IMG/VR virus record: IMGVR_UViG_3300045940_000009
Coordinates: 1 to 43,158 of that record
DNA length: 43,158 nucleotides
DNA from: a virus
Direction: 5' to 3' (one strand)
The notes beneath the pieces were generated by a model, which made no database searches, was not told where the DNA came from, and saw only the letters and a program-made list of their open reading frames with translations. Position 1 is the stretch's first letter; each line of letters starts with the position of its first letter. The position numbers and the translations under genes are program-made. Below are positions 4,873 to 9,693 of this stretch, piece by piece.

Positions 4873-5109
4873 TCAGATGCCGAGCCGCCGCGACAGCGTG
4901 ACCGAGCGCGGCCGACGCGCCGCCGTCGCCGTGCGCAGATAGCTGGAGATCGCGCGGCGGATCACGACCTGCACGCGGACGCGATCGGCACGCGCGATCG
5001 CGTCGAGCCGATCGAAGTCGCCAGGCGTCAGGTTCAGGCACAACTGCGCCGAAGGCGCGCCGGACTCGTCGAGCGCCGGACGGCCGCGCGGACGCTTCGG
5101 CATCGTCAT
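4873..5109 (-). CDS. Ribbon-helix-helix DNA-binding protein
   Basis: A 78-residue basic protein starting at an ATG that overlaps the stop of the upstream methyltransferase (ATGA at 5106-5109); a second ATG two codons later is also possible. After a basic arm (MPKRPRGRPALDE) it shows a short beta strand (AQLCLNLTP) and two helices (DFDRLDAIARADRVRVQVVIRRAISSYLR), the layout of an Arc/MetJ-type ribbon-helix-helix domain, which binds DNA as a dimer. It may regulate the late genes, but no operator was identified. The C-terminal 20 residues are basic and probably disordered. Confidence 0.72.
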   Translation of the reverse strand: MTMPKRPRGRPALDESGAPSAQLCLNLTPGDFDRLDAIARADRVRVQVVIRRAISSYLRTATAARRPRSVTLSRRLGI

Positions 5110-5984
5110 GTCAGTTCGGCGTCGGCGTGGATCACTCGTCGTCCGAGCCATTCGGCGATCTGCGGCACGAGCGCGTTGCCGAGCGCGCGCAGTCTGTCCA
5201 CGCGATTGGGAATCCCATGAGCCATTCGGACAGGGCCGGGGAAAGGTGCCCACGTGTCGCTGCCGAATAGGGGTCCATAGTCGAGCGCACGTTCGACTCT
5301 TCGCCGAGTGCAGGGCAGTCGCACTCGTAAGCGTGCAGCGGCCAATGGATCACACACAGGTAATCCTCGCAGCACGAGCACGGAATCCAATCCGGCAGAT
5401 TCTCCGCGAACTCGTCCAGTTGTCCCGTCCGCTGGCCGTAGCGGTGACTGCCTTTGAAGTCGTTCGCGCCGGGGGTAGGCAACCAGCCACACGCGCTCTC
5501 GTCTATGTGGGGCACCAACGACCCATGCAGGTATGCAATCCCATTCCGCGTCATACCCGCACTCGGCCAAGTCTCCGAGAACCGTTCCGAAGCTCCGTCC
5601 AGCGTCATTTGACAGTAACCCTGTGACGTTTTCAGCCAGCACCCAGCGGGGTCGTATGTCGCGAATGATTCGTGCGAACTCGGGCCAGAGATCGCGTGCG
5701 TCGTCAGATCCGCCGCGTCGGCCAGCGACGGAGTGCGGCTGGCAGGGAAAGCCTCCGCAAATAATGTCCACTGGTGCGAGACAGTCGGCGCAGGCGGCGC
5801 CGTCGTGCGCGGCTTGTCCGTGCGTCGTTCGGACATCGGCGTATCTCCTGACGTCGGGCCAGTGCTTCGCGAGCACGCGCCGACAATACGGATCGATCTC
5901 GACTTGCCAGACGATCTCGCAGCCTGCGCGTTCCAGGCCGAGATCGAAGCCGCCGATTCCGGCGAACAAGCTGCCGACTTTCAT
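5106..5984 (-). CDS. C5-cytosine DNA methyltransferase (Dcm family)
   Basis: A 292-residue enzyme that transfers a methyl group from S-adenosylmethionine to cytosine C5, likely protecting phage DNA from restriction. Motif I is FAGIGGFDLGLERAG at the N-terminus. Motif IV is GGFPCQPHSVAG with catalytic Cys81, motif VI is ENV (118-120), motif VIII is APHRRERVWLVA, and motifs IX/X are NRVDRLRALGNALVPQIAEWL. The target-recognition region (about 165-250) is short and arginine-rich, unlike a usual recognition domain. That stretch is also read in another frame by a nested gene. Starts and stops overlap both neighbours by ATGA. Activity is likely because all catalytic motifs are present; the target site is unknown. 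Confidence 0.92.
   Translation of the reverse strand: MKVGSLFAGIGGFDLGLERAGCEIVWQVEIDPYCRRVLAKHWPDVRRYADVRTTHGQAAHDGAACADCLAPVDIICGGFPCQPHSVAGRRGGSDDARDLWPEFARIIRDIRPRWVLAENVTGLLSNDAGRSFGTVLGDLAECGYDAEWDCIPAWVVGAPHRRERVWLVAYPRRERLQRQSPLRPADGTTGRVRGESAGLDSVLVLRGLPVCDPLAAARLRVRLPCTRRRVERALDYGPLFGSDTWAPFPGPVRMAHGIPNRVDRLRALGNALVPQIAEWLGRRVIHADAELT
5132..5836 (-). CDS. Gene nested within the Dcm-type methyltransferase, same strand, different frame
   Basis: A 234-residue open frame lying wholly inside the methyltransferase gene. It has its own ATG with a strong AGGAG 8 nt upstream. The protein does not look like a shadow: composition is balanced, and it contains stretches I recognise from phage proteins found next to Dcm genes, namely GCWLKTSQGYCQMTLDG, FSETWPSAGMTRNGIAYLHG, GWLPTPGANDFKGS and, near the C-terminus, LSEWLMGFPIAWTD. 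A cysteine cluster (PCSCCEDYLC... ECDCP) could bind a metal. Because the family keeps company with cytosine methyltransferases, a role in target recognition or as a partner subunit is possible, but that is inference. Overlap with a conserved enzyme over 705 nt is very unusual. Confidence 0.7.
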   Translation of the reverse strand: MSERRTDKPRTTAPPAPTVSHQWTLFAEAFPASRTPSLADAADLTTHAISGPSSHESFATYDPAGCWLKTSQGYCQMTLDGASERFSETWPSAGMTRNGIAYLHGSLVPHIDESACGWLPTPGANDFKGSHRYGQRTGQLDEFAENLPDWIPCSCCEDYLCVIHWPLHAYECDCPALGEESNVRSTMDPYSAATRGHLSPALSEWLMGFPIAWTDCARSATRSCRRSPNGSDDE

Positions 5985-6241
5985 TCGACGAGTCCCATCG
6001 GCCAGCCGCGCTGCACGCGCTCGCGTTCGACGCGCAGCTTTTCTCCCGTGCTACTCGTCGCCGTCCAGCGCAGATGCTGCGGGTAGCCGTCCACAAACGC
6101 GCACGTCCATTGCACCCGGTAGCCGTGTTCGTTGATCTCAGCCTTCGGCGTCGAACCGTGCTCCAGTTCGATCAGCGTCGCGGCCAGGTTCCGGCGGACG
6201 CAGACGACGTGACTCTCGATCAGGCCGACGTAGACGATCAT
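5981..6241 (-). CDS. Small conserved late-operon protein, function unknown
   Basis: An 86-residue protein starting MIVYVGLIESHVVCVRRN, with a start overlapping the large terminase stop and a stop overlapping the methyltransferase ATG (both ATGA). It looks like an alpha/beta or beta-rich small domain: alternating hydrophobic strands (VVCVRRNLAATLIEL, YRVQWTCAFVDG, LRWTATSS). No signal peptide or membrane segment is present. No family was recognised. An upstream in-frame extension would run deep into the terminase gene and was rejected in favour of the coupled start. Confidence 0.7.
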   Translation of the reverse strand: MIVYVGLIESHVVCVRRNLAATLIELEHGSTPKAEINEHGYRVQWTCAFVDGYPQHLRWTATSSTGEKLRVERERVQRGWPMGLVE

Positions 6242-7968
6242 GCGACGATCAGCACGGGGTCTTCGGCTGGCACGTCCGGCCGCGCGCGTAAGACAAGGTT
6301 TCTCGCAATCACTGCGGCCATGACCGGATCGATCCGGCCGCGCGACTTCTTCTTGATCGGAAAAATATTGCCCTTGCCGTCGCGCTGCACGACGGCATTG
6401 CCGTGCGTCCACATCAGCAGCGGACAGCCGCCGCCGTCCACGTTTCCCGCGAGCACGTCCGCTTCATACGCGCTCGCGCCGCTGGACATTCCGGCATAGG
6501 TCTGCGCGACTTCGACGACGCAGTCGCGATCGAAGCCGTCATCGTCAATCAACTGATCGACGAGCACGTCGGCATGCCATGGATCGAAGCCGACGCGCGC
6601 AATGCTGAAGCGGTTGCGCATTGCGCGCAGCACGTCGCGGATCACGCTGTGATTGACTTGCGTGCCAGGCGTCGTCCGCAGGACCGGCTCGCCGTCGATT
6701 CCGATCTCGGACGCCCAGCGGAGATACGGCGCGCGATCGCGATGCGCGCGCTCGGCGAGCGTCTCTTCGGGCGTCCAGACCCAGCGCAGCAGGCGATAGC
6801 GCGCATGCGTGTCGGACGGCGGAAAGAGCGCCACCATGGCGCAGAGATCGAGCTTGCTCGCGAGATCAATGCCGATGTAGCAGACTTCGCCGCGCAGATC
6901 GTCGAGCGTCCAGTCGTCGGACTGTCCGGCACGCCAGCCGTCGATCGATAGCCACGGCTCGCGCGCGGCTATCCACAGGTTGAGCCGTTTCTGCTTGTAT
7001 TCGGGCGCGCGGCCAGGCGCATGGACGGCGGCGAGCACGGCCTTGCGCATGTCGTCCGGATTGACGGAGATCCCCCACATCGGATTCGCCTTGATCGCCG
7101 TCGCTTCCGTCGTCCAGTCGTCGTCCGGATCGGCGTGCGCAATGAAGGCGAACGTCGAGTCTGTCGCCGCGTCGGCTGGCAGTGTCTCGTCGAGAATCTG
7201 ACAGCAGTAGGTGTGCATCTCGCCGCACGGACTGACGAGATCGTCACCGGCCGTCGTGATAATGAAATGTAGAAACGTCAGCCGCGCGCCTGTCGCGGAT
7301 TCCATGACATCGACGAGCGCGCGCGTCTTGTGCGCATGAAACTCGTCGGTCACGATGCAATACGGATTCAGGCCGTCCGTCGAATCGGCGTCGGCGCCGA
7401 GCGGCTCCAGTTTGGCGTCGAGCGCGTCGCGGTGCAGGTTGTGCGCGAGCACGCGCACGCGCGAGCGCAGGCCGGACGATCGCACGAGCTTGCGCGCCGC
7501 GTCGAAGCACAGCTTCGCTTGCTGCCGCTTCGTCGCGATCACGTAGCCTTCGGCGCCAGGCTCGCCGCTGAAGAAGGTCTGATAGAGCGCGACGATGGCT
7601 GCTTCGAGTGTCTTGCCGCTCTTTCTCGGCAGTTCGTTATACGCCGTCGTGAAACGCGGCAAGCCGCTCGCGGCGTGCTTCCAGCCGAAGACGCTGCCGA
7701 GCCGAAAGCGCTGCACGTCGGCGAGCACGATCGGCTTGCCTGCGAACTGCTCGCCTTTGTAGTGCCGTAGCTGTCCGGCGAAACGAAAGAAGCGCTCGGC
7801 TTCGTGGACGTCGAAGCGATACGCGAAGTCGCCTGCGGCTTCGCGTGCGCGATCGCGCAAGTGTCGCGCGCAGGCGAGCCGATGATATTGCCCGGCAGGC
7901 ACGACGCGCTCGACGACGGCCGTCGCGTAGCGATCGACGTCGTTAGTTCGGCTTGCTCGTGCTGGCAT
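6238..7968 (-). CDS. Terminase large subunit (ATPase/nuclease)
   Basis: A 576-residue DNA-packaging motor that cuts the concatemer and pumps DNA through the portal. The ATPase half carries the adenine/Walker A segment ELPRKSGKT (112-120; the PRKxGK variant typical of HK97-like terminases), Walker B CIVTDE (204-209) and the coupling segment HFIITTAGDD. The RNase H-like nuclease half begins at CYIGIDLASKLDL with Asp368, followed by GFDPWHA and a C-terminal KKKSRGRIDPVMAAVIA segment with another acidic residue. Length is normal for the Terminase_1/HK97 group. It overlaps the small subunit gene by 26 nt. Confidence 0.96.
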   Translation of the reverse strand: MPARASRTNDVDRYATAVVERVVPAGQYHRLACARHLRDRAREAAGDFAYRFDVHEAERFFRFAGQLRHYKGEQFAGKPIVLADVQRFRLGSVFGWKHAASGLPRFTTAYNELPRKSGKTLEAAIVALYQTFFSGEPGAEGYVIATKRQQAKLCFDAARKLVRSSGLRSRVRVLAHNLHRDALDAKLEPLGADADSTDGLNPYCIVTDEFHAHKTRALVDVMESATGARLTFLHFIITTAGDDLVSPCGEMHTYCCQILDETLPADAATDSTFAFIAHADPDDDWTTEATAIKANPMWGISVNPDDMRKAVLAAVHAPGRAPEYKQKRLNLWIAAREPWLSIDGWRAGQSDDWTLDDLRGEVCYIGIDLASKLDLCAMVALFPPSDTHARYRLLRWVWTPEETLAERAHRDRAPYLRWASEIGIDGEPVLRTTPGTQVNHSVIRDVLRAMRNRFSIARVGFDPWHADVLVDQLIDDDGFDRDCVVEVAQTYAGMSSGASAYEADVLAGNVDGGGCPLLMWTHGNAVVQRDGKGNIFPIKKKSRGRIDPVMAAVIARNLVLRARPDVPAEDPVLIVA

Positions 7969-8491
7969 GACTGCGGCCGTTCAGCGTCGGGCCTTTCGGC
8001 GCCGCGCCGCGTGTCGGCAGATCGAACTCGGCGAAGGCGTCGCCAGGTTCCTGCTCGGCCGCCGCCGCGACGCGCGTGCGCGCCGCAGGCGTCAGGCCGA
8101 GCGCGTCCCACAGGCGCGCGCAGTGCAAGAGCGACTTGTGCGCGATCTGCATGTAGGGATTGGGAATCGGGTTGTCGCTCTTCGCCGAGCGCAGCACGCG
8201 CCGCGTCGGCGGCGACTGCGCGAGCGCGTCCTGATAGACGGACCACTGCTGACAGGCGGCGAGCAGCACATTGCGATCGGCCTGCGTGACGACGCGCGCT
8301 TCGCGCAGCAGCGGCGCCAGGCGCGTCCATTCCGCCGCCGCGACAGCGTCGCTGGCGAGTTCCGGCGGCACGGCGTCGAAGCTGTCGTCGGCGGCGGCGA
8401 TCTGCGGCTCGTCGGCGTTATACGGACGTCGGCCAGGATTGCCGCGCAGCTTGCGCAGCGCTGTCGGCGTCGGCGCCGGACCGCGCTTCAT
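7943..8491 (-). CDS. Terminase small subunit, P27 family
   Basis: A 182-residue protein that recognises the packaging site and delivers DNA to the large subunit. The N-terminus MKRGPAPTPTALRKLRGNPG is the hallmark of P27-type small terminases. It is followed by PPELASDAVAAAEWTRLAPLL, VVTQADRNVLLAACQQWSVYQDAL and NPYMQIAHKSLLHCARLWDALGLTPAARTRV, all family features. The ATG overlaps the stop of the upstream methyltransferase (ATGA), which fixes the start. The C-terminus overlaps the large subunit start. Confidence 0.95.
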   Translation of the reverse strand: MKRGPAPTPTALRKLRGNPGRRPYNADEPQIAAADDSFDAVPPELASDAVAAAEWTRLAPLLREARVVTQADRNVLLAACQQWSVYQDALAQSPPTRRVLRSAKSDNPIPNPYMQIAHKSLLHCARLWDALGLTPAARTRVAAAAEQEPGDAFAEFDLPTRGAAPKGPTLNGRSHASTSKPN

Positions 8492-9693
8492 GCTGACGCC
8501 TGCTCGGCGCGCAGCAGCACGCCGTCGCGAATCGCGCGTGCAATCGCCGCCATCATGGGCGGCGGCACGGCGCGGCCGAGCCGCTCCCACTGCTGGCCGT
8601 AACTGCCGGTCAAGACGAAGTCGTCCGGAAAGCCGCAGATCCGCTTGACTTCCGCAATCGTCAGGCGGCGCCGTTCGACGCCCAGCGTAATTTCGTTATG
8701 CGTGAAGCGACGGCCGAGCGTCAGCACAGTCGGCGCAGGCGTGTCGAGCGATCGCCGATCGTGCTTCGTCTGGACCCATTCGACGACGCCGCTGCTGGCG
8801 CCGCTGGCGAATTGATAGTCGCTGTGTCCGCCTGTGCCGCTCATCTTCGCGCGCACAGTCGGCGCCGGACGATCGATCGCATGCAGCCGCGCGGCTTCGC
8901 GCGCGTTGCTCGTGACGATCGCATCGACGGCGCGCGTCGCCACGATCGGCGGCGACGGTCCGGCCGCGTCAAGCCAGCGATCGTGGATCACGCCGTCCTG
9001 CACGGCGTTGAGTTCCGGCAGCGCGTCGCGCACGCTGTAGCGATACGGCAGCGGCGTCGGAAAGACCGGCGCGCGTGCCAGGTCCCGGCGGACGCCGACG
9101 AAGATCAGCCGCTTGCGCACTTGCGGCACGCCGAGCCATTGCGCGTCGAGCAGCCGCGCTTCGACGTTGTAACCGAGCGCGACGAAGTGCGCGAGCAGCC
9201 GCTTGAACATCCCCTTCGCCACGCCTTGCACGAGTCCGGCGACGTTCTCGGCGACGAAGACGCGCGGCTGCAGTTCGTGCACAAGCCGCGCATACTCGAA
9301 GAAGAGATCGTCCACGCGCTGCTTCGTGTCCGAGTAGGTCTTGACGGCGCCCCATTGCGCCTCAAGCTGTCCGGCTGTCGAGAAGCTCGCGCACGGCGGC
9401 GAGCCGTCGAGCACGTCGAGCTTGCCGACTGGAATGCCCGTCGCGGCGACAATGCTGCTGCCGCGCACGGCGCGCACGTCGCGCGGATCGATCGTCGTCG
9501 TCGGCCAGTTCGCGCGGTAGCTGTCGCGTGCCGCCGACACGAACTCATTGGCCCAGACGACGTCGAAGCCTGCCATCCGATAGCCGAGCGACGATCCGCC
9601 GCAGCCGCTGAACGTGGACGCCACCGTCAAGCCGCAGCGCGGCAGCGTCGCGATCTCGGCCATGCTCGGCAGGCAATACGGCGGCTTGATCAC
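8488..9693 (-). CDS. C5-cytosine DNA methyltransferase, second copy, different subfamily
   Basis: A 401-residue methyltransferase unlike the shorter one at 5.1-6.0 kb. Motif I is ASTFSGCGGSSLGYRMAGF, motif IV is DGSPPCASFSTAG with catalytic Cys101, motif VI is AENVAG (148-153), motif VIII is LGVPQVRKRLIFVGVRR, and a full target-recognition region (about 210-345) follows. The C-terminal motifs are RLTIAEVKRICGFPDDF and GRAVPPPMMAAIARAI. The GTG start overlaps the ParB-like stop (GTGA); an ATG ten codons later is an alternative. Lying next to terminase and a ParB-like gene, it probably modifies phage DNA before packaging or counters host restriction. The target site cannot be inferred. Confidence 0.93.
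   Translation of the reverse strand: MIKPPYCLPSMAEIATLPRCGLTVASTFSGCGGSSLGYRMAGFDVVWANEFVSAARDSYRANWPTTTIDPRDVRAVRGSSIVAATGIPVGKLDVLDGSPPCASFSTAGQLEAQWGAVKTYSDTKQRVDDLFFEYARLVHELQPRVFVAENVAGLVQGVAKGMFKRLLAHFVALGYNVEARLLDAQWLGVPQVRKRLIFVGVRRDLARAPVFPTPLPYRYSVRDALPELNAVQDGVIHDRWLDAAGPSPPIVATRAVDAIVTSNAREAARLHAIDRPAPTVRAKMSGTGGHSDYQFASGASSGVVEWVQTKHDRRSLDTPAPTVLTLGRRFTHNEITLGVERRRLTIAEVKRICGFPDDFVLTGSYGQQWERLGRAVPPPMMAAIARAIRDGVLLRAEQASA

Follow-up and report, generated by a model that had tools for sequence, protein, structure and literature searches.

A phage C5-cytosine DNA methyltransferase probably divided between two overlapping reading frames

A stretch of virus DNA of 43,158 bases, the whole of which is referred to here as the window, carries a gene for a C5-cytosine DNA methyltransferase (alpha) that encloses a second open reading frame (beta). 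Both frames are under selection, methyltransferase motif IX is located in beta and motif X in alpha, and profile comparison shows the C-terminal half of beta to be homologous to the region between motifs VIII and X that single-chain enzymes carry in frame. It is very likely, on the strength of these sequence comparisons, that the locus encodes one enzyme as two polypeptides, each read from its own frame of the shared DNA, and that these would form a heterodimer in which alpha is the catalytic subunit and beta the target recognition subunit. Each frame appears to correspond to one of the two structural domains of a single enzyme.

To our knowledge, long same-strand overlaps with selection on both frames have rarely been demonstrated outside the small viruses. 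The overlap described here is present in phages as well as in bacterial records that, by their titles, come from many phyla, and its single-chain and split relatives show a possible route from one gene to an overlapping pair.

Results and discussion

Organization of the locus

Both ORFs are on the minus strand (Table 1). Beta is in the +1 frame of alpha and lies wholly within it, the overlap taking up 705 nt out of alpha's 879 nt, so that the earlier note on this DNA was right to describe a 234-codon frame with an AGGAG site fully inside a C5-methyltransferase gene. Beta would initiate at this ribosome-binding site of its own. Alpha sits downstream of the large terminase gene (6238-7968), with one small ORF between them. 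A second C5-methyltransferase gene (8488-9693, minus strand), which is canonical, complete and single-chain with motifs IX and X, is found upstream of alpha on the same strand and adjoins the ORFs upstream of the large terminase. The 3' end of alpha is overlapped by a small ORF (4873-5253, minus strand) with a weak match to phrog_876, a phage transcriptional repressor family (E 0.016). From what is generally known of phage methyltransferases, the role of the enzyme is probably self-methylation of the phage DNA against host restriction.

Table 1. Features of the alpha/beta locus, in positions of the window
Feature	Position	Strand	Description and basis
Alpha, catalytic (large-domain) subunit of C5-cytosine DNA methyltransferase	5106..5984	-	292 aa; motifs I-VIII and X, no motif IX; ORF, PF00145, phrog_363
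Beta, nested subunit; probable small domain (target recognition and motif IX)	5132..5836	-	234 aa; ORF, phrog_1008, open-frame and selection tests
Beta ribosome-binding site AGGAG	5845..5849	-	8 nt ahead of the ATG at 5836-5834; sequence
Alpha 5' part free of beta	5837..5984	-	Motif I at 5949-5975; relatives vary freely at third codon positions
Alpha motif IV (5730-5756) to motif VIII (5472-5516), same DNA as beta N-terminal half	5472..5756	-	Third-position change reduced in relatives
Alpha linker, motifs VIII-X	5208..5471	-	88 aa, 16 Arg; alpha frame poorly conserved; alignment, codon-position pattern; GC by codon position follows beta frame
Alpha motif X segment NRVDRLRALGNALVPQIAEW	5148..5207	-	Profile alignment and sequence
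Beta conserved block FSETWPSAGMTRNG	5540..5581	-	Alignment and sequence
Beta block WLPTPGANDFKG, near start of stretch common to single-chain methyltransferases	5450..5485	-	Profile comparison and sequence
Beta motif IX LSPALSEWLMGFPIAWTD	5192..5245	-	MGFP at 5207-5218; begins 38 nt before GN of alpha motif X
Cys/His cluster CSCCEDYLCVIHWPLHAYECDC within beta	5315..5380	-	Sequence and pattern count in nested loci

Selection on both reading frames

An open frame inside a conserved gene of a GC-rich genome may seem conserved only through the conservation of the gene around it, in which case beta would be a shadow of alpha. As a null test, codons of each alpha were exchanged among synonymous sites, which leaves its protein and codon usage unchanged, in a pool of 160 loci (L087-L246) that had not been used in the beta profile; 146 of these were tested, with five repeat loci left in, the others being excluded for a partial alpha, ambiguous bases or an overlap in another frame. 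The real beta frame has no stops in any of the 146 loci, while the shuffles contain a mean of 4.5 and are stop-free in 5.8% of cases (n=5840). The earlier note had allowed that homologues might show frequent stops here, and the frame instead stays open in relatives. The median beta-profile score of the real frames is 166 bits (40-243) versus 56 bits for the shuffled ones, only 6 of 5840 shuffles reach the real value, and the +2 frame scores at most 9.8 bits. The 56-bit score is a shadow of alpha and is carried by any beta similarity search; this, and the fact that the frame of the window stays open in 21 of 5000 alpha shuffles (mean 4.0 stops), are the points in favour of a shadow.

Changes per codon at alpha positions 1/2/3 were counted over 39 independent pairs of nested relatives. 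They are.150/.089/.483 in the 5' part of alpha without overlap (1549 codons),.177/.106/.323 in motifs IV-VIII (4065 codons),.367/.237/.271 in the VIII-X linker (1943 codons) and.148/.055/.162 around motifs IX and X (420 codons), and an earlier count over 28 pairs agrees (.143/.071/.454 before the overlap,.172/.092/.229 within it). Position 3 of alpha is position 2 of beta, and the suppression of change at this position therefore indicates that beta is constrained. In the linker, change is fastest at position 1 of alpha, equivalent to position 3 of beta, so that beta is the protein kept there. GC content by codon position in the linker of the window is.73/.60/.49 in the alpha frame and.60/.49/.73 in the beta frame, and the latter resembles the unshared 5' part of alpha (.63/.45/.80). 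Beta-frame ATG codons with an SD of at least 5 occur in 79 of 184 nested loci versus 27.1 in alpha-preserving shuffles, and with an SD of at least 4 in 146 versus 73.1.

The overlap is thus not due to chance but is a case of dual coding with both frames under selection, which agrees with the impression in the earlier note that both products look like real proteins. Given also that the same overlap occurs in loci titled Bacillota, Synergistaceae and others, and that the C-terminal half of beta occurs in frame in single-chain enzymes, we give the shadow explanation almost no credence.

The same counts bear on programmed ribosomal frameshifting, by which ribosomes would pass from the alpha to the beta frame after motif VIII and produce a single chain of motifs I-VIII, target recognition domain (TRD) and motif IX, without an independent beta. 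The geometry of the ORFs alone would permit this, and the single-chain and split relatives described below do interchange repeatedly within one clade. Such a product would nevertheless be without motif X and would not need beta to be constrained upstream of motif VIII, where third-position change in alpha falls to.323 from.483, nor does the enrichment of SD-bearing start codons in the beta frame fit it. We consider frameshifting very improbable, and independent initiation of beta is preferred.

Distribution of the overlap

A scan of viral sequences with beta as query gave loci L005-L084, the best 80 of 454 confirmed; L167-L246 are the best 80 of the 593 confirmed in a second scan, for which alpha was the only query. 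In the alpha-first set the overlapping frame matches the beta profile in 80 of 80 loci and is the +1 frame in 79; in L240 the beta frame is shifted together with a frame-shifted alpha. Five of these 80 are also among the loci of the beta scan, and two of the five are copies of the window's virus. The +1 overlap is present in all 84 beta-first viral and phage loci (74 distinct beta ORFs; three loci are copies of the window's virus) and in 78 of 80 beta-first bacterial loci. L020 and L073 show a downstream shift in both frames, the ORFs of L160 overlap but the HMM segments compared do not, and L152 has a stop in the alpha frame near motif IX. A phrog_1008 query found 27 of 398 genomes in the phylum of the genome containing L092 and 4 of 398 in that of L112, each count including the centre genome, which had been picked for having the gene. 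Beta is in the +1 frame of alpha in all 26 loci of this phylum sample (24 distinct places), with the alpha ORF cut short in L430 and L433. The overlap was also seen in the Bacillota, Synergistaceae and other loci mentioned above. A plasmid search for beta gave four records, none of them enterobacterial.

Ten large neighbours of the bacterial copies were scanned, of 76 listed. Three matched integrases, two matched phage replication proteins (a DNA polymerase and a DnaC-like loader) and three matched phage families of unknown function, while one matched a radical SAM family and one had no match. At least part of the bacterial copies are therefore probably in prophages or other mobile elements.

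The overlap also exposes an annotation gap. None of six nested phage records (SG4, XFactor, Llama, Microcystis phage Mwe-JY08, ctjLE16 and SOVA965) lists alpha and beta as two genes, whereas four of five split records do (Firecracker, Alma, RemusLoopin and Orcanus), the exception being a Streptomyces plasmid whose gene table may be incomplete. In Mycobacterium phage XFactor (L002, 2001-2871) beta alone is annotated, as a hypothetical protein, and the surrounding alpha is not; in Mycobacterium phage SG4 (L001) the reverse is true. In Mycobacterium phage Llama (L003, 2001-2760) alpha is split over two frames and annotated as two genes, and the beta frame shifts near the same place. A two-piece match like that of Llama was seen in six other named mycobacteriophages.

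The predicted catalytic subunit

Alpha matches phrog_363 (E 3.6e-80) and PF00145 (DNA_methylase, E 5.8e-48), the latter over profile positions 1-166 of 324 only. It has the motifs of the catalytic half of a C5-cytosine methyltransferase, namely motif I, motif IV with PCQ, motif VI with ENV and motif VIII, and the reading of motif X in the earlier note is also correct, although this stretch alone is not significant in comparison with M.HhaI. The alpha profile aligns to residues 12-177 of M.HhaI (motifs I-VIII), and a second stretch aligns to residues 294-319, where GNAVVPQ falls on motif X with 2.1 bits; nothing aligned between the two stretches (177 to 294). Relatives of alpha are conserved through motif VIII and then again from about GVPNRVDRLRALGNAVVPQ, and the length and content in between are highly variable. 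A single-chain C5-methyltransferase has motif IX and the recognition region on the same chain between motifs VIII and X. Alpha does not, and motif IX is found in the +1 frame.

Alpha would accordingly be read as the large domain (motifs I-VIII and X), responsible for AdoMet binding and catalysis, and its stretch between motifs VIII and X as mostly a linker carried along by the code of beta. The earlier note had regarded this stretch as an arginine-rich oddity; the richness is real (16 arginines and no lysine in 88 residues), but the oddity is only mild.

The nested frame and its predicted product

Beta matches phrog_1008 (E 5.8e-25 in the window), as do all 50 beta rows of alignment A1, so the nested protein has relatives in a known phage family, another point on which the earlier note had been prepared for the opposite. 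Both phrog_1008 and phrog_363 are labelled only "DNA methyltransferase", and the search output is silent on overlap or subunits. None of the 50 beta rows matches Pfam or NCBIfam. The conserved blocks of beta are SWRTSQ, FSETWPRSGMMRNG, at least one LPTP block and NPxWVEWLMGFPIGWTDL, and the three strings that had been quoted from it are all present (Table 1). The EWLMGFP string is motif IX, in which beta ends.

The beta profile matches the in-frame C-terminal half of several single-chain methyltransferases, none of which went into its construction. With E values set for 30,000 sequences, these are Filuzino gp68 (4e-13), Philonius gp55 (1.8e-7), PFR1 gp45 (4.1e-6) and Lton gp60 (1.1e-5), with Tweety gp72 as a marginal match (1.3e-3). 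Among the ORFs of 78 loci of the window's other methyltransferase family (5457 in all), the same profile reported no match. In Lton gp60 and PFR1 gp45, PF00145 extends through the C-terminal half (profile 11-316 and 3-312, of 324). Taken together, the in-frame matches and the PF00145 coverage indicate that the C-terminal half of beta corresponds to the recognition region plus motif IX. The similarity of the N-terminal half is partly a shadow of alpha, since the shuffles still give the 56-bit median and single-chain loci, whose +1 frame is open, score 64-75 bits in that frame.

Other comparisons were of little use. When beta was compared by hhalign with the window's canonical methyltransferase family (19 sequences), 7 columns aligned at motif IX, LMGFP on ICGFP, with an E of 0.49, a match that is unusable alone. 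A search of PDB sequences with the beta profile for a relative of solved structure gave only chance apolipoprotein matches (E of 0.85 or higher). AlphaFold produced poor models both for the beta of the window (48 rows, pLDDT 57.3, pTM 0.18) and for a compact relative from L203 (119 rows, pLDDT 64.3, pTM 0.24), and Foldseek with the poor L203 model found no match with E < 1 (best E 2.8).

In the earlier note the nested protein was a possible supplier or modifier of target recognition, and the evidence favours the former: the homology of the C-terminal half of beta to the single-chain VIII-X region includes motif IX, and beta is the conserved frame there. Beta could instead be an accessory or regulator of a self-sufficient alpha, involved in stability, toxicity control or anti-restriction. 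The short linker of alpha could in principle recognise DNA, and the published prediction for M.EcoHK31I, as given in passages of PMC3404938, puts the recognition domain in the large subunit. However, the linker is the unconserved frame, the counterpart of the single-chain VIII-X region is in beta, and motif IX is in the beta frame rather than the alpha frame in the 210 loci classed as nested, and we regard an accessory role as very improbable. The preferred reading is that beta is the small domain, with target recognition and motif IX, and that alpha and beta would assemble as a heterodimer whose target sequence is set by beta.

Beta has some further features of its own. The Cys/His cluster CSCCEDYLCVIHWPLHAYECDC looks zinc-binding; the pattern occurs in 13 of 184 nested loci, in every case in the beta frame, with the window and its copies accounting for 6 of them. 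The LPTP stretch is matched two or three times in succession in Filuzino gp68 (L338, 85-1695) and Orcanus gp41 (L335, 862-1584), and by a loose pattern at least two LPTP blocks are found in 70 of 246 beta ORFs. By analogy, these repeats may possibly be tandem recognition modules, which are a feature of multispecific Bacillus phage methyltransferases. In L128 (4680-5651, plus strand, 120.8 bits) and L008 (3572-4048, plus strand, 61.6 bits) the beta profile has a further match, in a second ORF that lies downstream of the nested pair and is possibly an extra or separate beta.

Single-chain and split relatives and the origin of the overlap

In Gordonia phage Lton (gp60), Propionibacterium phage PFR1 (gp45) and the Mycobacterium phages Tweety (gp72), Philonius (gp55) and Filuzino (gp68), a single ORF runs from the catalytic motifs through EWMMG(L/W)P to GNG(V/A)xP. 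Mycobacterium phage Firecracker has a split form: gp6 contains motifs I-VIII only and is overlapped by 209 nt by gp5, a beta relative that ends VNPAFAEWMMGWPDGWVTGLGLSHADKLWIIGNGVCPQQA... and has motifs IX and X in one frame. Both match phrog_116, gp6 at 205-374 and the C-terminus of gp5 at 441-482 (9e-6).

A regular-expression search for motifs IX and X over 299 loci with alpha gave 210 nested loci (IX in +1, X in the alpha frame), 19 single-chain loci, 17 split loci (IX and X in +1) and 53 unassigned or odd ones. The last comprise 25 with motif IX only, 15 with X only, 7 with neither, 3 with both frames shifted, 2 unpaired and 1 (L380) with IX in the alpha frame and the X match in +1. In the split class L193 and L152 are probably misfits and six rows are identical to each other; in the single-chain class L407, whose motif IX (LNADWVEALMGYPQGW) resembles that of nested loci and lies in the alpha frame, is doubtful.

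Measured from MG of motif IX to GN of motif X, the spacing is 38 nt in 189 of the 210 nested loci, and also in 9 of 9 phylum-sample loci in which both motifs were recognised (of 26). A spacing of 66-72 nt is found in 18 of the 19 single-chain loci and in 12 of the 17 split ones. Nested alpha (RVDRLRALGNALVPQ) and single-chain enzymes (SRAEQLKAIGNGVCPPQ) have similar residues around GN. The 38-nt spacing of the nested form, as against 66-72 nt in the single chain, suggests two compensating frameshifts: one would have occurred after motif VIII, and the other would have been a change in length between motifs IX and X that was not a multiple of three.

A tree of 83 rows, in which the single-chain and split forms make up 34 rows (without L407, L193 and L152), places these two forms in one clade (100/99) with repeated switches between them (8 label changes for single-chain and 8 for split). 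In the best tree this clade lies inside the nested rows, although a topology that unites all nested rows in a single clade is not rejected (p 0.393). The canonical outgroup branch has 2.6 changes per column and, because it is so long, the tree does not fix the order of events. We infer the direction from single chain to nested pair because a single chain is the canonical C5 state.

Comparison with known systems

Lee, Kam and Shaw reportedly described in 1995 a beta gene of M.EcoHK31I that lies inside the alpha gene in another frame, and the window would share with it this placing of the small-subunit gene within the large-subunit gene. According to passages of PMC3404938, M.EcoHK31I (YGGCCR) is an E. 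coli two-subunit C5-methyltransferase with motifs I-VIII and X on the large subunit and motif IX on the small one, so that a two-subunit kind with IX alone on the small subunit is already known. Alpha and beta of the window have the same layout, the likeness being one of motif layout, with motif X judged by position and sequence. The earlier note named neither this precedent nor the EWLMGFP string as motif IX. The two systems differ in that the one in the window is phage-borne and has recognition placed in beta, whereas in M.EcoHK31I it is predicted in the large subunit.

M.AquI (CYCGRG) is a two-subunit C5-methyltransferase split after motif VIII (passages of PMC3404938), a layout that is resembled by the split relatives Firecracker gp6/gp5, Alma gp83/gp82, RemusLoopin gp34/gp35 and Orcanus gp40/gp41. 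Its motif X is on the small subunit together with IX, unlike in the window, where X is in the alpha frame. The single-chain actinophage enzymes (Lton gp60, PFR1 gp45 and Tweety gp72) share the catalytic half, and their C-terminal half is homologous to that of beta, but they are one polypeptide in one frame while the window uses two frames. In the structures of M.HhaI and M.HaeIII, as passages of PMC3404938 describe them, the variable region and motif IX belong to the small domain. Two other candidates were set aside: M.BatI, a prophage enzyme with a short TRD, differs in motif I (passages of PMC8936443), and the ShiLan paper deals with a phage methylase carrying an out-of-frame HNH insertion, which is not the present type of overlap (passages of PMC11855218).

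No paper on the nested family in phages was found in the open-access literature searched. As far as that literature shows, what is new here is the breadth among phages, the evidence for recognition in beta, the series of single-chain, split and nested forms, and the 38-nt spacing between motifs IX and X. Put together, these may describe a widespread class of methyltransferases that stores two structural domains in two frames, not by overprinting but as a single chain re-partitioned by the two compensating frameshifts (one following VIII, the other between IX and X), after which each frame would have expanded into the code of the other. Beta would be free to vary and to duplicate LPTP blocks while the other frame keeps catalysis, and the recognition domain of M.EcoHK31I would have been assigned to the wrong subunit. 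We lean slightly towards this joint reading. The reassignment of target recognition to the small subunit can be tested in enzymes of the M.EcoHK31I layout.
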